From Frateuria sp. Soil773 (GTDB taxonomy: Bacteria > Pseudomonadota > Gammaproteobacteria > Xanthomonadales > Rhodanobacteraceae): a DNA stretch of 64,000 bases. Every line of letters starts with the position of its first letter. Position 1 is the stretch's first letter. The stretch is taken from positions 445,844-509,843 of the forward strand of contig NZ_LMSL01000041.1 in the NCBI RefSeq assembly GCF_001428405.1, given 5' to 3'. Under the pieces are notes generated by a model, which was not told the DNA's origin, ran no database searches, and saw only the letters and a program-made list of their open reading frames with translations. Shown here in pieces: positions 25,863-32,850 of the stretch. A program made the position numbers and the translations under genes.

Positions 25863-25887
25863 GGCGGGCGGGAATAAAACGCCCGCC
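25863..25887 (+). promoter_or_regulatory. Hairpin with ECF-like -35 element upstream of the metallophosphoesterase operon
   Basis: GGCGGGCG (25863-25870) and CGCCCGCC (25880-25887) form a perfect 8-bp inverted repeat. The loop contains GGAATAA at 25871-25877, which resembles the -35 of several ECF sigma factors. A candidate -10 lies about 14-16 nt further on, in CGATCTTG. Because the operon encodes its own ECF factor, this may be the autoregulated promoter. Inference from sequence pattern only. Confidence 0.35.
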
Positions 25888-25927
25888 CGATCGATCTTGT
25901 GATCCACCTACCCCCGGAACCGCCGCC

Positions 25928-26887
25928 ATGACCGACCACGACTTCGACCCTTCCCACGACCCCGGCCGGCGCCAGGCGCTGGGCTGCCTCGCCGCCTGGA
26001 CCGGCGCCGCGGTGCTGTGGAGCGTCGCCGGCGGCGTGCCGCGCGCGCTGGGCATGGCGGCCGGCGGCGAGGCCGCCGCGGCGCCGCCCGGCGCCCTGAG
26101 CTTCGTGCAGATCAGCGACACCCACATCGGCTTCAACAAGGCCGCCAATCCCGACGTGGTCGGCAGCCTGCGCCGCGCCATCGCGGACATCAACGCGCTG
26201 CCGCAGCGCCCGGCCTTCGTGGTGCACACCGGCGACATCAGCCACCTCTCGCGCGCCGACCAGTTCGGCCAGGCGCGCGAGCTGTTCCAGGAAATCCGCA
26301 CCGACCGCCTGCACACCGTGCCCGGCGAGCACGACGCGATCGACGACGGCGTGGCCGGCTACCTGCGCGTCTTCGGCGCCGACGGCAGGGGGCGCTCCTG
26401 GTACAGCTTCGACCAGGGCGGCGTGCACTTCGTCGGCCTGAACAACGTGCAGAACTTCAAGGCCGGCACGATGGCTGCGCTGGGCGACGAGCAACTGGCC
26501 TGGCTGAAGGCGGACCTGGCCGGCGTCGCGCATTCCACGCCGGTGGTGGTGCTGGCGCACATCCCGCTGTGGACGATCTGGGCGCCGTGGGGCTGGGGCA
26601 CCTCCGACGCCGACGCCGCGCTCGCGCTGCTGCGCCCGTTCGGCTCGGTCACCGTGCTCAACGGACACATCCACCAGGTGATGCAGAAGGTGGAAGGCCA
26701 CGTGGCGCTGCACACCGCCATGTCGCTGGCCTATCCGCTGCCCACGCCGGGACAGGCCGGCATCGGCGAGCCGGGGCCGGTCACCGTGCCGCCCGGCCAG
26801 CTCGGCAGGCTGCTCGGCACCCGGCGGGTCTCGCTGGTGCGCGGCAACCGCCCGCTCGCCCTGATCGACACCCCGCTCGACCGCTGA
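25928..26887 (+). CDS. Exported calcineurin-like metallophosphoesterase
   Basis: 319 residues. An N-terminal Tat-like signal (PGRRQALGCLAAWTGAAVLWSVAGG) indicates export in folded form. The metal-site motifs of the calcineurin fold are complete: QISDTHIGF (D-x-H), VHTGDISH (GD), a histidine in VPGEHDAID where the family usually has GNHD, LAHIPL, and LNGHIHQV (GHxH). The Asn-to-Glu change in the GNHD box is notable. It is first in a four-gene unit with a cupredoxin, an ECF sigma factor and an anti-sigma factor, 28 nt before the cupredoxin gene. The natural substrate is unknown. Confidence 0.88.
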   Translation: MTDHDFDPSHDPGRRQALGCLAAWTGAAVLWSVAGGVPRALGMAAGGEAAAAPPGALSFVQISDTHIGFNKAANPDVVGSLRRAIADINALPQRPAFVVHTGDISHLSRADQFGQARELFQEIRTDRLHTVPGEHDAIDDGVAGYLRVFGADGRGRSWYSFDQGGVHFVGLNNVQNFKAGTMAALGDEQLAWLKADLAGVAHSTPVVVLAHIPLWTIWAPWGWGTSDADAALALLRPFGSVTVLNGHIHQVMQKVEGHVALHTAMSLAYPLPTPGQAGIGEPGPVTVPPGQLGRLLGTRRVSLVRGNRPLALIDTPLDR

Positions 26888-26914
26888 TCCCGCTCCCACC
26901 CCAGAGACCCGACC

Positions 26915-27256
26915 ATGAACCTCGACAAGACCGCCCGCCTGGCCCTGGCCGGCATCCTGGCCTGCCTCGCCGCCCCGCTTGCCGCCACGGCCGCCGCGCC
27001 CGCGCCGGTCGTCGTGTCCATCACCGGCTTCGCTTTCGGTCCGGCCCAGCTCACGGTGCGGCCCGGCACGCAGGTGACCTGGATCAACCACGACCAGGTG
27101 CCGCACACGGTGACCAGCCGGCAGGGCAAGCTGCTGGACTCGCCGGCCCTGGACACCGACGACCGCTATTCGCACACCTTCACCGAGGCGGGCGATTTCG
27201 AGTACTACTGCACCGTGCATCCGTTCATGACGGGAGTGGTCCATGTGCGCAAGTGA
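26915..27256 (+). CDS. Periplasmic cupredoxin (plastocyanin/amicyanin-like)
   Basis: 113 residues with a signal peptide (about residues 1-26, ending ATAAAPA) and one cupredoxin domain. Type 1 copper ligands are visible: His in VPHTVTSR, then Cys, His and Met in the loop YYCTVHPFMTGVVHV. This is the short amicyanin-like loop spacing. It would bind one copper and carry electrons or buffer copper in the periplasm. It lies between the metallophosphoesterase and the ECF sigma genes on the same strand, which suggests that the sigma factor responds to a copper, redox or envelope signal. Confidence 0.93.
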   Translation: MNLDKTARLALAGILACLAAPLAATAAAPAPVVVSITGFAFGPAQLTVRPGTQVTWINHDQVPHTVTSRQGKLLDSPALDTDDRYSHTFTEAGDFEYYCTVHPFMTGVVHVRK

Positions 27257-27286
27257 CGTCCCCGCCCTTCGCCGGGCCTGAGCGCG

Positions 27287-27853
27287 ATGGACGCTACGGA
27301 CCCGCGCGGCCTCGTCGGCGAACTCGCCCTGCGCCAGCTCGACGCCGCCTACAACCTCGCGCGCTGGCTGCTCGGCAACGACGCCGACGCCGGCGACGCC
27401 GTGCACGACGCCTTCGTGCGCGCGCTGCAATCGGCGCACACCTACGCCGGCGGCAACGCCAGGGCGTGGTGGCTCACCATCGTGCGCCACTGCTGCTTCG
27501 CGCGGCTGAAGGAGCGCAGCGACGGGCGGCGCTTCGTCGCCATCGACCAGCTCGCCGCCGACCTCGGCGAAGCCGCCGTGCAGCGCATCCTGCCGAAGAG
27601 CGCGGCCGACGGGCCGGAACAGGGCGCGGCGTCCGCCCAGGAACGCGCGCGGCTGCACCGGCAGTTGCACGAGCTGCCGCCGGAGTACCGCGAGGTGCTG
27701 GTCCTGCGCGAGATCGAGGAGCTGTCCTACCGTGAGATCGCCGAAATGCTGTCGATACCGATCGGCACCGTGATGTCGCGCCTGTCGCGCGGGCGCGAAC
27801 GGCTGCTGCACGCCCTCCGCGCCGACGCGGCGCGCAGCGGAGAACGCCCATGA
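27287..27853 (+). CDS. ECF-type RNA polymerase sigma factor
   Basis: 188 residues with regions sigma2 (NLARWLLGNDADAGDAVHDAFVRALQSAHTYAGGNARAWWLTIVRHCCF, about residues 22-72) and sigma4 (LPPEYREVLVLREIEELSYREIAEMLSIPIGTVMSRLSRGRERLLHAL, about 128-175). The sigma3 region is absent, as in group IV factors. It directs transcription of a small regulon when released by its anti-sigma factor. The stop overlaps the start of the anti-sigma gene (ATGA), giving the usual coupled pair. The upstream metallophosphoesterase and cupredoxin genes are probable targets. Confidence 0.94.
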   Translation: MDATDPRGLVGELALRQLDAAYNLARWLLGNDADAGDAVHDAFVRALQSAHTYAGGNARAWWLTIVRHCCFARLKERSDGRRFVAIDQLAADLGEAAVQRILPKSAADGPEQGAASAQERARLHRQLHELPPEYREVLVLREIEELSYREIAEMLSIPIGTVMSRLSRGRERLLHALRADAARSGERP

Positions 27854-28614
27854 ACTGCGAATCGTCCCGCCACCTGCTGCCGCTGTATTTCGACGGCGAA
27901 CTGGACCCGGCCGCGAGCCGCGCCTTCGAGTCGCACCTGGACGGCTGCGCCGCGTGCCGGCAGGCGCTGCACGAGCTGGAGACGCTGCGCGCGCGGCTGC
28001 GCGACCCGGCGGCGCGCTTCGCCGCGCCCGCCGCGCTGCGCGCCCGCCTCGCCGCCACGGCGCCCGCCCGCCCGCGCATGCGGAACCGTCCATGGCTGGC
28101 GCTTGCCGCCTCTTGGCTGGCCGCCGCCGCCGTCGGCGCCGGCTCGGCCGGGCTGTGGCAGGACCGGCAGCACGCCGTACAGGCGCAGGCACAGCTCACC
28201 CGCGACCTGTTCGCCGGCCACTGGCGCGCGCTCGCCGCCGCCTCGCCGGTGGATGTGGTCTCCACCGACCGGCATACCGTCAAGCCCTGGTTCGCCGGCA
28301 AGGTGGCCGAGTCGCCGCCGGTGCACGATTTCGCCGCGCAGGGCTTCCCGCTCGCGGGTGGGCGCATCGACTACGCCGGCAGCGCGCGCGTGCCGGTGCT
28401 GGTCTACCGCCACGGCGGGCACCTGATCGACGTGTTCGTGCTCGCCTCCGCCGATCCCGGCCTGCCGCGGCAGGCGCAGATGCGCGGCTACGGCCTGCGC
28501 ACGCTGGCGCTTGGCCATGCCACCGCGGCGGTGGTGTCGGACATGGACGAGGCCGAGCTGGACCGTTTCGCGCAGTTGCTGGCACAGGGCGAAACCGCCG
28601 CGCCGGCGCGCTAG
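27850..28614 (+). CDS. Zinc-finger transmembrane anti-sigma factor
   Basis: 254 residues. The N-terminal ZAS domain has H29-x3-C33-x2-C36 plus Cys3, the zinc motif of many anti-ECF factors. One membrane helix follows at about residues 80-102 (WLALAASWLAAAAVGAGSAGLW). The periplasmic part includes DVVSTDRHTVKPWFAGKVAESPPVHDFAAQGFPLAGGRIDY and GGHLIDVFVL, a pattern common in anti-sigma factors beside such ECF genes. It should hold the sigma factor at the membrane until a periplasmic signal arrives. Its TAG shares the CTAG at 28611-28614 with the convergent hrpA stop. Confidence 0.92.
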   Translation: MNCESSRHLLPLYFDGELDPAASRAFESHLDGCAACRQALHELETLRARLRDPAARFAAPAALRARLAATAPARPRMRNRPWLALAASWLAAAAVGAGSAGLWQDRQHAVQAQAQLTRDLFAGHWRALAAASPVDVVSTDRHTVKPWFAGKVAESPPVHDFAAQGFPLAGGRIDYAGSARVPVLVYRHGGHLIDVFVLASADPGLPRQAQMRGYGLRTLALGHATAAVVSDMDEAELDRFAQLLAQGETAAPAR

Positions 28615-31600
28615 CCCGGCGCCAGCGTTTCCAGCGCGCGTGCCAGCCGCTTGGCCGAGACCGGCTCGGCGGTCTTGAGCTCCTGCGCGAACAGCGACAC
28701 GCGCCATTCCTCGATCAGCCACCGCAGCTCGTCCAGCGCCGCGGCATCGGCGCCGGCGGCGCGATGCTGCAACCAGGCGCGCCAGTACGGCAGCACCTGC
28801 AGCATGCGCTGCTGGTCCTTCGCCGGGTCCTGGCGCAGGCGCTCGGCGCGCAGGCGCATCGCCTTCAGGTAGCGCGGGTAGTGCGCGAGCCGCGCGGGCG
28901 GCAGCTCGCGCAGGAAGCCCGGCACCAGCAGGCCATCCAGTTGCTCGCGCAGGTCGTCGTAGCTGGCCCTCGCGAAGCCCAGCAGCGGCGGCTGCAGCCA
29001 CGGCTTCAGTTCGGCCTGCGCCTCGATGACCGGCTCGGCCAGCTTCAGCCGCTCCACCGCGCTGGCGAACAGCTCGCGCGCGGCCTGCGTGCGCAGCGCC
29101 TCGAACGCGCCGGCCGTGCGCACGTCCAGCGCGTGCCGTTCCAGCAGGTCGGCGAAGCCACCCTCGACCAGGTCCTCGCGCAGGCCCTCCACGCTGCCCA
29201 GCGGCGCGTACTTCAGCGACAGCGAGTTGGCGATCGGCAGGCGGCGGCGCGCCTGCTTCATGTCGCTCGCCAGCGCGTTGCGCAGCAGACGCACCACGCC
29301 GTCGCGGTGCGCCGCGCGCGCCTCGTCGCCGCGCTCGAACACGCGCAGCGCCACCGTCTCGCCGAGGTCGACCAGCGCCGGGAACGCCGTCAGGCCGCCC
29401 TCGGAGCGCACCTGGGCGGGGATCTCCTCGAAGTCCCAATGGGCGACTTCCTCGCGGGTCAGCTCGATGTCGGTCTTGCGCGAGAACGCCTCGCGCGCCT
29501 GGCCTTCCCACTGGCCGCGCAGGGCGGCGAGGTCGCGCGAGGCGCCGAGCGTTTTGCCCCGGCCCGCGTCGTCGCCGTCGTGCAGGCGGTAGCGCATCAG
29601 GAAATGCGGCGGAAGTTCGACCGTATCGAACTCGCCGGCGGCGATCTCGACGCCGGTGGTGCGCCGCAGGAACGCCGCCAGCGCCTTCGCCAGCGGCTCG
29701 TCGCGCGACGCCTCGGCCTCGACGAAGGCGCGCGCGAAGTCCGGCGCCGGCACGAAGTTGCGGCGCAGCGCCTTGGGCAGCCCGCGGATCAGCTCGGCCA
29801 CCTTGTCGCCGAGCAGGCCGGGCACCAGCCATTCGCAGCGCGCCGCCGGCAGCGCGTTGAGCATCGCCAGCGGCAATTGCAGGGTGACGCCGTCGGCCTC
29901 GTCGCCGGGCACGAAGCGGTATTCCAGCCGGTAGCGCTTGGGCGGCAGTTCAAGCGTGGCCGGGAACGCCTTCGGGTCGAGCCCGGCGCCGCCGGCCATC
30001 ACGTCGTCGATCGACCAGCGCAGCGCGGCCTGCTCGGCCGGTCGCGCGCGGGCGTACCACGCATCCAGCGCGCGGCTGCTGGCGATGTCCCCGGGCAGCT
30101 TGCCGCGGAAGAAATCGACCAGTTCGTCCTCGTGGCGGATCAGCCCTTCGCGCCGCTGCTTGGCCTCGATGCCTTGCGCATCCTCCAGCACGCGCCGGTT
30201 CGCGCGCACGAAGTCGGCGCGGCTGTCGAGGTCGCCGCGCACCAGCGCCTCGCGCAGGAAGATCTCGTGCGCCAGCGCCGGGTCCTGCTGCTGGAACGTC
30301 ACCGGCCGCCGCTCGACCAGGGTCAGCCCGAACAGGCTGACCTGCTCGTAGGCCACCACGCAGCCGCGCTTGCGCGACCAGTGCGGCTCGCGGCAGCTCG
30401 AACGCAGCAGGTGCGCGGCCTGCTGCTCGATCCACAGCGGCTCGACGCGCGCGTTCGCCATGCCCCACACCTTGCCGCCCACGTCGAGGATCTGCGCCGC
30501 GAACACCCAGTTCGGCGGCACCTTCGACAACGCCGAGCCGGGGAACAACTGGAACTTGCGCTCGCGCGTGCCCTGGTAGACGCCCTTCTCGTCCTTGCGC
30601 CCGACCTGGGTCGGCAAGCCGGCCAGGAGGGAACGATGGATGGCCTCGAAGAGACCGTCCGTCGCTCCCTGTCGATCCACGGCCGGCTCCTCGCGCTCGC
30701 CTCCCCTCCCCTCGGGAGAGGGGATCGAGGTGACGGGCCGGGGCTCGCCAGAGCGTGCAGGCGAAGCGCGCCCGCGCTTTCCGGCGCCCCGCGAAGCGCC
30801 CCCCTCGCCCCGGTGAGAGGGAGAAACCGCATCGCGTCCTGCCTTTCCCTTGCCTACAGGAGAAGACGCAGGCCGCGCGGCATCCAGCTTCCAGCCCAGC
30901 TCCTGCACCACCAGCAGCAGCTGCCGGTGCAGCTCGCGCCATTCGCGCATGCGCATGAAGCTGAGGAAGTGCCGCGAGCACCAGTCGCGCAGCTTCGACT
31001 GGGTCAGTTCCTCATGCGCCTCGTGATAAGCGCGCCACAGGTTCAGCACGCCGACGAAGTCGGATTTCGGGTCGGCGAAGGCGGCGTGCGCGGCGTCGGC
31101 CTGCTGGCGCGCGTCGGCCGGGCGCTCGCGCGGGTCCTGGATGCTGAGGAAGGACACCACCGTGAGCAGCTCGCGCAGCGCATGCAGCTTCTCGCCTTCC
31201 ACCAGCATGCGCGCCAGTTGCACGTCGATCGGCAGGCGCGCGAGGGTGTGGCCGATGGCGGTCAGCCTGCGCGCCTCGTCGATCGCCGAGATCTCGGCGA
31301 GCCGGCGGTAGCCGTCGGCGACCACGCGCGGGTCGGGCGCGTCGAGGAAGGGGAACTCGTCCACCTCGCCGAGCCTGAGCGCCAGCATGCGCAGGATCAC
31401 GTTGGCCAGCGACGAGCGCAGCAGCTCCGGATCGGTGAACGCGGCGCGGCCGGCGTAGTCGGCCTCGTCGTAGAGGCGGTAGCAGATGCCCGGGCCGACG
31501 CGGCCGCAGCGCCCCTTGCGCTGGTCGGCGGCGGCCTGCGAGACGGGCTCCACGTGCAGCCGCTCGAGCTGGCTGCGCTGGCTGTAGCGCTTCACCCGCG

Positions 31601-32771
31601 CGCTGCCGGTGTCGACCACGTAGCGGATGCGCGGCACGGTGAGCGACGTTTCGGCCACGTTGGTGGCGAGCACCACGCGGCGCTTGCTGCCGGGCTTGAA
31701 CACGCGGTCCTGGTCGCCCGCCGAGAGGCGCGCGTACAGCGGCAGGATCTCGGTCTCGCGGTACTGCCTGCGCGACAGCAGCAGGTGCGCGTCGCGGATC
31801 TCGCGCTCGCCCGGCAGGAACACCAGCACGTCGCCTGGGCCGCCGCCGAGGCTGCGGTCGGCCATGATCTCGTCCACCACCGCGGCGACGTGCTCGGCGC
31901 TGCCCTGCTGCATGTCCTGGCGGAAATTCCGCGCCGGCGGCCACGGCTCCGGCGCTCCCGCGGCGGGCTCGCCCACCGGCCGCCAGCGCAGCTCGACCGG
32001 ATACGCCCGCCCTTCCACCGACACCACCGGCGCGCCGCCGAAGTGCTCGGCGAAGCGCGCGGTGTCGATGGTGGCCGAGGTGACGATGATCTTCAGCTCC
32101 GGCCGCTTCGCGGCGAGCCGCTTCAGGTAGCCGAGCAGGAAATCGATGTTGAGGCTGCGCTCGTGCGCCTCGTCGATGATGATCGTGTCGTAGGCCGACA
32201 GCCAGGGATCGCCCTGGGTCTCGGCGAGCAGGATGCCGTCGGTCATGAACTTGACCAGGGTGCGCTCGGACACCTGGTCGTTGAAGCGCACCTGGAAGCC
32301 GACCTGCTCGCCGAGCGCGCTGCCCAGCTCCTCGGCGACGCGGCGCGCCACCGAGCGCGCGGCCAGCCGGCGCGGCTGGGTGCAGCCGATCATGCCGGCC
32401 TCGCCGCGGCCGGCGGCCAGGCACAGCTTGGGTAGCTGGGTGGTCTTGCCCGAGCCGGTCTCGCCGGCGATCACCACCACCTGATGCTCGCGGATCAGCT
32501 TGACGATGTCGTCGGCGCGCGCGGCGATCGGCAGCGACTCGTCGATCCGGATCGCCGGCTTGGCGGCGACCCGCGCCTGGCGCACGGCGGCCGAGCGCGC
32601 GATGTCGGCGGCCAGCTTCTCCAGCTTCGCCTCGTCCGGCTGCCGCGACAGCCCGCGCCAGCGCCCCAGCAGGCGGCCGAAGTCGCGGCTGCACGCGCCG
32701 TCGAGCGCCTTGCGCAAGGCGCGCAGGCGGGCATCCGGGGAAACGGGAGGCGTGCGTGGCGTGTCGTTCAT
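28611..32771 (-). CDS. hrpA: ATP-dependent DEAH-box RNA helicase HrpA with repeat-derived insertion
   Basis: 1386 residues. Helicase core: Walker A GETGSGKTTQ, DEAH in IIIDEAHERS, motif III TSATID, and motif VI QRKGRCGRVGPG. The HA2/OB-like region and the long HrpA-specific C-terminus follow. HrpA acts on RNA, including stalled ribosomes and mRNA processing in E. coli. Residues about 633-703 (positions 30660-30875), rich in Gly/Arg/Ser/Pro, interrupt a conserved segment and look like a translated palindromic repeat. The start is placed at 32771; in-frame starts at 32783 and 32834 are possible, none with a strong ribosome-binding site. The gene is convergent with the anti-sigma gene. Confidence 0.93.
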   Translation of the reverse strand: MNDTPRTPPVSPDARLRALRKALDGACSRDFGRLLGRWRGLSRQPDEAKLEKLAADIARSAAVRQARVAAKPAIRIDESLPIAARADDIVKLIREHQVVVIAGETGSGKTTQLPKLCLAAGRGEAGMIGCTQPRRLAARSVARRVAEELGSALGEQVGFQVRFNDQVSERTLVKFMTDGILLAETQGDPWLSAYDTIIIDEAHERSLNIDFLLGYLKRLAAKRPELKIIVTSATIDTARFAEHFGGAPVVSVEGRAYPVELRWRPVGEPAAGAPEPWPPARNFRQDMQQGSAEHVAAVVDEIMADRSLGGGPGDVLVFLPGEREIRDAHLLLSRRQYRETEILPLYARLSAGDQDRVFKPGSKRRVVLATNVAETSLTVPRIRYVVDTGSARVKRYSQRSQLERLHVEPVSQAAADQRKGRCGRVGPGICYRLYDEADYAGRAAFTDPELLRSSLANVILRMLALRLGEVDEFPFLDAPDPRVVADGYRRLAEISAIDEARRLTAIGHTLARLPIDVQLARMLVEGEKLHALRELLTVVSFLSIQDPRERPADARQQADAAHAAFADPKSDFVGVLNLWRAYHEAHEELTQSKLRDWCSRHFLSFMRMREWRELHRQLLLVVQELGWKLDAARPASSPVGKGKAGRDAVSPSHRGEGGASRGAGKRGRASPARSGEPRPVTSIPSPEGRGGEREEPAVDRQGATDGLFEAIHRSLLAGLPTQVGRKDEKGVYQGTRERKFQLFPGSALSKVPPNWVFAAQILDVGGKVWGMANARVEPLWIEQQAAHLLRSSCREPHWSRKRGCVVAYEQVSLFGLTLVERRPVTFQQQDPALAHEIFLREALVRGDLDSRADFVRANRRVLEDAQGIEAKQRREGLIRHEDELVDFFRGKLPGDIASSRALDAWYARARPAEQAALRWSIDDVMAGGAGLDPKAFPATLELPPKRYRLEYRFVPGDEADGVTLQLPLAMLNALPAARCEWLVPGLLGDKVAELIRGLPKALRRNFVPAPDFARAFVEAEASRDEPLAKALAAFLRRTTGVEIAAGEFDTVELPPHFLMRYRLHDGDDAGRGKTLGASRDLAALRGQWEGQAREAFSRKTDIELTREEVAHWDFEEIPAQVRSEGGLTAFPALVDLGETVALRVFERGDEARAAHRDGVVRLLRNALASDMKQARRRLPIANSLSLKYAPLGSVEGLREDLVEGGFADLLERHALDVRTAGAFEALRTQAARELFASAVERLKLAEPVIEAQAELKPWLQPPLLGFARASYDDLREQLDGLLVPGFLRELPPARLAHYPRYLKAMRLRAERLRQDPAKDQQRMLQVLPYWRAWLQHRAAGADAAALDELRWLIEEWRVSLFAQELKTAEPVSAKRLARALETLAPG
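30660..30875 (-). repeat. GC-rich palindromic repeat inserted in frame within hrpA
   Basis: The DNA contains matching G/C tracts typical of intergenic palindromes: CCCCTCCCCTCGGGAGAGGGG near 30711-30731 and CCCCCTCGCCCCGGTGAGAGGG near 30800-30822. It is translated on the hrpA strand as low-complexity SPSHRGEGGASRGA and IPSPEGRGGERE. It keeps the reading frame and contains no stop. Confidence 0.6.
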
Positions 32772-32807
32772 GGAACCGCGCATGATAACCGCTGGCGGCG
32801 ATCCGTC

Positions 32808-32850
32808 CCGATAGCCGGCGGCTATCGGCGGCATCGGCAGGATTCATTTC
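32808..32850 (+). promoter_or_regulatory. Candidate OxyR binding site upstream of dps
   Basis: ATAG-7-CTAT (32811-32825) is an exact match to the OxyR half-site and lies within a 9-bp perfect dyad, CCGATAGCC-GGC-GGCTATCGG. Seven bases further on, ATCG-7-TCAT is a weak second half-site at the correct spacing. dps is a known OxyR target in E. coli. The match is direct, and the function is inferred. Confidence 0.5.

Follow-up and report, generated by a model that had tools for sequence, protein, structure and literature searches.

Positions 25928–28614 of the 64,000-nucleotide stretch analysed here (the window; Frateuria sp. Soil773, contig NZ_LMSL01000041.1, host genome of 4.55 Mb) carry four genes on the + strand, preceded by a short promoter region: an exported metallophosphoesterase (MPE; 319 aa, 25928–26887), an exported type-1 cupredoxin of the amicyanin/plastocyanin kind (113 aa, 26915–27256), an extracytoplasmic function (ECF) sigma factor (188 aa, 27287–27853), and a membrane anti-sigma factor (254 aa, 27850–28614). 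Gaps of 27 nt (MPE/cupredoxin) and 30 nt (cupredoxin/sigma) separate the first three genes, and the sigma and anti-sigma genes overlap by 4 nt. An earlier note, made from the letters of the window, had described a tightly spaced operon of these four families, and the open reading frames and Pfam matches bear it out (PF00149, E 2.9e-12, for the MPE; PF00127 and PF13473 for the cupredoxin; Sigma70_r2 and r4_2 for the sigma factor; zf-HC2 for the anti-sigma). Export of the MPE and the cupredoxin is predicted from their N-termini, read by eye; the MPE N-terminus shows a twin-arginine stretch. Comparison with relatives shows sigma factor, anti-sigma, MPE and cupredoxin to be, as judged from sequence, a conserved unit.

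Conservation and spread of the four-gene unit

Relatives were compared as fetched stretches of DNA (loci, labelled L) and as genomes (labelled G). In the MPE subfamily of the window, most sampled relatives have the MPE-cupredoxin pair together with an anti-sigma and an ECF sigma factor that has a promoter motif of its own. Among the best 80 of 422 MPE relatives in named genomes, a cupredoxin relative was found in 79 loci, and sigma plus anti-sigma in 67. Within the host family the MPE occurs in 51 of 147 genomes (E up to 1e-50); all four genes are present in 29 of the 30 loci fetched there, window included, and the thirtieth (L099) ends before the anti-sigma gene. At the level of the phylum, where 18 of 398 genomes have the MPE (E up to 1e-40; three of them in subfamily 2), the 14 close loci besides the window encode a cupredoxin in every case and sigma plus anti-sigma in 11; the three distant loci have sigma and anti-sigma and gave no type-1 cupredoxin match. 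Pooling the loci of the named-genome and host-family searches with those of one further search, and removing duplicates, left 113 unique MPE loci, with a cupredoxin in 111 and sigma plus anti-sigma in 96; the co-occurrence that the earlier note had proposed to survey is that of a conserved unit. The cupredoxin and MPE genes share a strand in 114/114 rows. As to gene order, on whose conservation in relatives the earlier proposal had been staked, that of the window, MPE-cupredoxin-sigma-anti-sigma, is the commonest of three arrangements (63 pooled loci, against 28 divergent and 5 sigma-first). Missing partners coincide with contig ends at L048, L054 and L068; no complete sigma/anti-sigma pair lies in the fetched stretches of L009, L011, L017, L018, L020 and five Chromobacterium loci. 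Since Bradyrhizobium and its kin are over-represented among the pooled loci, these counts do not represent independent events.

Horizontal transfer of the module is likely, because the MPEs of Betaproteobacteria (among the best 80 of 422) are 69–79% identical to that of the window, whereas those of its own family fall into two groups, one at 75–95% and one at only 50–57%. Six plasmid loci of Burkholderia and Caballeronia have GGAATA before the MPE (6/6), a cupredoxin (5/6), and sigma plus anti-sigma (3/6). On plasmids of Actinomycetota, the MPE-cupredoxin pair lies beside other regulators, with none found in L095. In a Mycobacteroides plasmid (L093:2161-4900), the sigma gene overlaps a gene for a Rieske 2Fe-2S protein, followed by cupredoxin and MPE; the Rieske protein has a long N-terminal extension and occupies the place of the anti-sigma, so it is possibly an iron-sulfur anti-sigma. 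In two Streptomyces plasmids (L096:1195-5391 and L148), cupredoxin and MPE are accompanied by a small membrane protein and adjoined by a divergent, different ECF sigma factor with a zf-HC2 anti-sigma. Further conserved neighbours did not emerge; judging from cluster sizes and the examples examined, other clusters of open reading frames fell mainly within Bradyrhizobium and its kin. In the window itself, the module lies between a divergent upstream gene, which we take to be RelA/SpoT-like and which is not the same in L010, and a convergent downstream gene, presumably helicase-like (28611–32834), whose end overlaps that of the anti-sigma gene.

Promoter motif and sigma factor

The predicted promoter consists of an ECF-type -35 element, GGAATA (25871–25876, + strand), and a -10 element, GATC (25893–25896, + strand), that begins 22 nt from the GGAATA start, a spacing that matches most relatives. 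Of the 113 unique loci, 101 have GGAATA upstream of the MPE, and in 92 it is followed after exactly 16 bases by [AG][AG]T[CA]; as background, GGAATA occurred in 302 of 5650 random 250-base stretches from the same loci (5%). Where the sigma gene has its own promoter outside the MPE operon (33 loci), GGAATA precedes it in 32; in sequence comparison, the motif is thus shown to precede the MPE-cupredoxin pair and nearly always the separate sigma gene as well. Three genomes of the f19 family carry MPE and cupredoxin with no sigma gene nearby, and the motif stands before the MPE in all three; in two of these (G466 and G468), another contig carries the best anti-sigma match, alongside a sigma gene that has a separate copy of the motif upstream.

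The strict full motif occurs once in the host genome, at the module (reversed control, 0), and a single anti-sigma of the module type is encoded there. Among 17 other module genomes, nine contain one copy and eight contain two to seven; in seven of the nine single-copy genomes, this copy lies at the module, the strict pattern being one that overlooks some real module promoters, such as that of G466. A wider regulon was considered and set aside: a relaxed motif gave five sites in the host genome, and the four outside the module lacked convincing context in the 200 bases inspected. The earlier note had proposed autoregulation of the operon by its sigma factor, the output being the cupredoxin and the MPE. 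Comparison of the conserved promoter motif supports this well, as do the single motif and anti-sigma in the genome; comparative sequence evidence that the regulon is very small is likewise strong.

The same note had pointed to a hairpin in the promoter region, and this 8-bp inverted repeat around the -35 element is present as described (25863–25887, unstranded; stem GGCGGGCG / CGCCCGCC, with GGAATAAAA in the loop). It is unusual, because only 25 of 20000 shuffled versions of its flanks gave a stem of that length. Its role as a regulatory element was rejected for lack of conservation: an 8-bp stem occurs in 3 of 103 promoters, those of the window and L098 plus L097, a duplicate row of the window, and is probably incidental. 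In L098, a 95%-identical relative, the stem is preserved through one compensating pair change.

The sigma factor has regions 2 and 4 only and, at 188 aa, the length of about 190 aa expected of the ECF group. Its conserved -35 hexamer, present in the 101 loci mentioned, is that of the ECF26 sigma factors, whose consensus is given as GGAATA/GT in the excerpts available (PMC6180224). At the -10 position, the module loci have GATC, GGTC or GGTA. The only ECF26 sigma compared, from a locus in an unannotated record of Sinorhizobium meliloti that we take to be that of RpoE6 from its divergent protease-like gene, is 35% identical to the sigma factor of the window (E 2.5e-15); this locus reads GGAATA-N16-GTT, with GTTC at the -10 position (ECF26 consensus GT), and the anti-sigma beside it lacks the HTVKPW motif, unlike that of the window. 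A close described counterpart in organization is RpoE4 of S. meliloti (ECF26), which has a membrane anti-sigma and a small regulon with rpoE4-anti-sigma and sorT-sorU-azu2, according to excerpts of the source papers (PMC3511301, PMC6180224); it shares with the window an ECF sigma with membrane anti-sigma, a periplasmic cupredoxin in the regulon together with its enzyme, and, as the consensus of its group, GGAATA, but its enzyme is a sulfite dehydrogenase and not an MPE. CorE-type copper ECF factors are defined, in the available part of PMC10141476, by a Cys-rich C-terminal extension and the lack of an anti-sigma; the window sigma is not of this type, its C-terminal end being free of Cys and an anti-sigma being encoded. 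EcfQ and EcfF of Bradyrhizobium were rejected as equivalents of this system, since they belong to different loci as far as the excerpted literature goes. The literature base, excerpted throughout, also includes PMC3420878 and PMC7406223; among the papers listed in the literature searches, 25 of 118 in the last of them, none was recognised as describing this operon.

The GEHD metallophosphoesterase and its carriers

The MPE aligns to the glycerophosphodiesterase GpdQ with all PF00149 metal motifs (D-x-H, GD, His, GHxH) except one, where GNHD is replaced by GEHD (codons 26324–26335, + strand; Glu134 at the Asn position of GpdQ, alignment to 2dxl), so that the canonical GNH[DE] Asn ligand is absent. 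The altered box had been noted from this gene, and it is indeed there; as a single-gene oddity it does not hold, since it is constant across relatives (115/115 full-length rows). Because one of the six query peptides of the named-genome search contained GEHD, counts were kept separate for loci from whole-protein searches, where the box recurs in 30/30 host-family and 17/17 phylum loci (47/47), and a search artefact was rejected on this basis. A broken active site was rejected as well: D64, H66, D103, E134, H135, H211, H247 and H249 are invariant in 49 sequences. GEHD also extends to distant MPE relatives (L203-L212, 10/10, and L145-L147); within the sequences compared it is the mark of a clade. 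The predicted model of the MPE matches GpdQ (Z 16.8) and Rv0805 (Z 14.9), followed by purple acid phosphatases and others (Z 11–14). With these two class III cyclic phosphodiesterases the MPE shares the fold and the remaining metal motifs; it differs from them in the Glu, in its export, and in adjoining an electron-carrier gene. Within the export signal (25967–26035, MPE residues 14–36), Cys20 is invariant and Trp24 nearly so in 49 relatives; such conservation would be unusual in a cleaved signal, and perhaps marks a retained, functional membrane anchor.

The type-1 copper ligands of the cupredoxin (H64, C99, H102, M105) are intact in 114/114 rows. The protein shares these ligands and the fold family with amicyanin and plastocyanin; it differs from amicyanin in its score against the equivalog model NCBIfam TIGR02657 (60.3 bits, cut-off 110.2) and in its genetic setting, beside an MPE and an ECF switch. 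Beside most of the more distant GEHD proteins, other carriers occupy the same place. In subfamily 2, a CuA-motif cupredoxin lies beside the MPE in three of four loci (L145, L146 and, from Cupriavidus, L203), with a Pfam COX2 match in both proteins scanned. In subfamily 3, sampled as nine hand-picked loci (L204-L212, two from S. meliloti), a small CxxCH protein follows the MPE in eight, and both proteins scanned match the SoxA/TsdA cytochrome c family. This MPE-cytochrome pair belongs to a common cluster in Phyllobacterium, Rhizobium, S. fredii and G361, which also encodes SCO, a CarboxypepD_reg protein, cbb3-type oxidase subunits, TauE, a P-type ATPase, and an FAD oxidoreductase; the subfamily 3 loci L205 and L244 have no such cluster. 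The same cluster, with GEHD MPE and SoxA/TsdA-type cytochrome, occupies L247:8300-20866 and is common to L243, L245 and L246; its CarboxypepD_reg protein in L247 bears a C-x2-H-x2-M stretch, and soxZ and soxY come after the cluster there. In a longer Phyllobacterium stretch the cluster is followed by soxZ and soxY, which are also annotated in two S. meliloti records.

Sensor domain and proposed function

The anti-sigma has the zinc-binding motif of class I anti-sigma factors (H-x3-C-x2-C), with zf-HC2 matches in 50/50 sequences and the cysteines C33 and C36 kept in 87/90 and 88/90. Its AlphaFold2 model (mean predicted local distance difference test score, pLDDT, 89.9) shows a zinc-finger domain, then a long helix, read as transmembrane, and then a periplasmic domain. 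In fold, the periplasmic domain comes closest to 1vr8 (Z 8.3) and to six RseB/MucB entries (Z 7.9–8.2; 95–104 residues at 2.9–3.8 Å and 13–17% identity; for 2p4b, Z 8.2, 97 residues, 2.9 Å), ahead of the next other fold (4n7s, Z 5.5), although a Z value around 8 may arise from a widespread structural arrangement. In this model, the sensor resembles the small domain of RseB/MucB, as a resemblance in fold only. The likeness to the RseA-RseB and MucA-MucB systems would lie in a membrane anti-sigma and this periplasmic fold; the window anti-sigma differs from both in containing the RseB-like domain itself, and in its zinc-finger sigma-binding domain. The periplasmic part contains a nearly invariant D-x-HTVKPW motif and three nearly invariant His (124, 142 and 191), and has no conserved Cys or Met (66/90 sequences are entirely free of Cys there); the conserved residues occur as well in L091 and L147, two loci whose surroundings gave no cupredoxin. 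The earlier suggestion that the anti-sigma senses copper or oxidants is doubtful on both counts. Thiol or Met oxidation as the signal is disfavoured by the lack of conserved Cys and Met, and, since the conserved residues persist without a nearby cupredoxin, a general envelope cue appears more likely from these alignments than copper or thiol oxidation; metal sensing retains some plausibility because of the three near-invariant His.

At a probability of roughly 0.55, the genes constitute a self-contained envelope-response module with an enzyme and an electron carrier as output, in which the carrier is needed for electron exchange rather than for copper buffering. The anti-sigma would tether the sigma factor to the membrane by means of its zinc-finger domain; a cue from the periplasm, acting on the RseB-like domain, would free the sigma factor, probably via proteolysis; and the freed sigma factor would turn the operon on and amplify itself. 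The output would be two periplasmic proteins, the exported GpdQ-like phosphoesterase with Glu for Asn in its dinuclear metal site and the electron carrier, and electron exchange between them could either keep the metal pair of the enzyme in its active oxidation state, or be a true redox step. The first would resemble purple acid phosphatases, in which electrons keep a mixed-valent metal pair active. Electron exchange is proposed as the common need because type-1 cupredoxin, CuA protein and c-type cytochrome swap places across the subfamilies; signal, substrate and electron transfer are all inferred. A broader extension is distinctly more tentative: the GEHD MPEs might be a redox-coupled enzyme family, in which the change from Asn to Glu gives a dinuclear site rich in carboxylates. 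Electrons would pass between this site and a dedicated carrier in the periplasm, one that evolution has swapped among type-1 copper, CuA and c-type haem.

Several observations weigh against a switch-controlled pairing of enzyme and carrier. No carrier was found next to the MPE in L147 (subfamily 2) and L204 (subfamily 3); a conjugative plasmid of Burkholderia vietnamiensis (L092:4875-5924) has the MPE with GGAATA, with no cupredoxin or sigma found nearby; and five Chromobacterium genomes (L021-L025) have MPE and cupredoxin with no GGAATA and no sigma/anti-sigma in the fetched stretch, so that the pair can exist without a nearby switch. G399, the third genome with an unlinked pair, gave only a weak anti-sigma match and showed no matching promoter for a sigma gene; the sole copy of the strict motif lies away from the module in G012 and G479, and G499 has seven copies against seven in the reversed control. 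The MPE model is of moderate quality (pLDDT 72), the RseB match comes from a single predicted model, and an RseB/MucB profile was absent among the 25 listed of 36 Pfam families matched by 50 anti-sigmas (E up to 1). In favour of the pairing stands the carrier association, examined against PF00149 proteins of six genomes that had been chosen for carrying the module, with 30 of 61 matches fetched and 1500 bases on each side: in cupredoxin-profile searches, 4/4 GEHD loci lie beside a cupredoxin versus 0/26 others (Fisher 3.6e-5), the 26 comprising 23 with GNHD or GNHE and three without a recognised box, and CxxCH strings occur in 4/26 of the latter and 2/4 GEHD loci. Because the GEHD proteins are one clade, the 4/4 association is not independent evidence.

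The pairing bears in turn on a plain envelope-stress phosphodiesterase, in which the MPE would cut a lipid-linked or nucleotide phosphodiester and the cupredoxin would be an independent, co-induced redox protein. The GpdQ/Rv0805 fold and the RseB-like sensor agree with such a role, and a precedent exists in UpsH (YpbG) of the Bacillus subtilis SigM regulon, a metallophosphoesterase under an ECF envelope-stress sigma that is proposed to act in this way; UpsH differs from the window MPE in acting on the cytoplasmic face, and the excerpts available mention no cupredoxin partner (PMC11898649). Such a role is improbable: GEHD proteins repeatedly have an electron carrier of varying type beside them, and no cupredoxin adjoins the 23 GNHD/E loci examined.

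A comparably small probability attaches to a sulfur-linked enzyme, in which the MPE, as a distant counterpart of SoxB, would act on reactive sulfur species, the carrier would take the electrons, and a sulfite-like signal would free the sigma factor. SoxB shares the MPE fold; four records place subfamily 3 with an FAD oxidoreductase and TauE, and soxYZ are annotated in Phyllobacterium and two S. meliloti records; and in L093, of Mycobacteroides, a molybdopterin oxidoreductase (PF00174), which we take to be sulfite-oxidase kin, is encoded two genes upstream of sigma. The ECF26 sigmas RpoE1 and RpoE4 of S. meliloti, in the excerpts at hand, respond to sulfite and belong to a group with a GGAATA consensus (PMC3511301, PMC6180224). 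These observations suggest a sulfur role from part of subfamily 3 and from sulfite-responsive ECF26 systems, and not from the subfamily of the window, for which the link was rejected: soxY, soxZ, the FAD oxidoreductase and the subfamily 3 cytochrome went unmatched in L009-L088 (80 loci) and in the window, and L205 and L244 lack the cluster even within subfamily 3.

Finally, a copper-stress operon, in which periplasmic copper would free the sigma factor, the cupredoxin would bind copper, and the phosphoesterase would repair or scavenge damaged phosphodiesters, is unlikely: the intact type-1 ligands and the three periplasmic His fit it, but the carrier in relatives is a CxxCH cytochrome or CuA protein, the His persist in the two cases without a nearby cupredoxin, the sensor has no conserved Cys or Met, and no copper exporter or multicopper oxidase is among the four genes. 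Of the output that the earlier note had assigned to cupredoxin and phosphoesterase, the operon output stands, and the copper role is weakened because a CuA protein or CxxCH cytochrome takes that position in relatives of the MPE; the sequence comparison points to a redox-coupled periplasmic enzyme more than to copper detoxification.

The envelope-response module with its enzyme and electron carrier is a compact signalling unit, with one sigma factor, one anti-sigma, and one full promoter motif in this genome. Metallophosphoesterases are common bacterial hydrolases, in which a need for an electron carrier is unexpected; if the redox-coupled reading is true, the GEHD proteins would represent a calcineurin-fold enzyme that depends on electron transfer, or carries it out, and one metal-ligand change in a clade with three kinds of carrier beside it would lead to a direct prediction of what this ligand change does.

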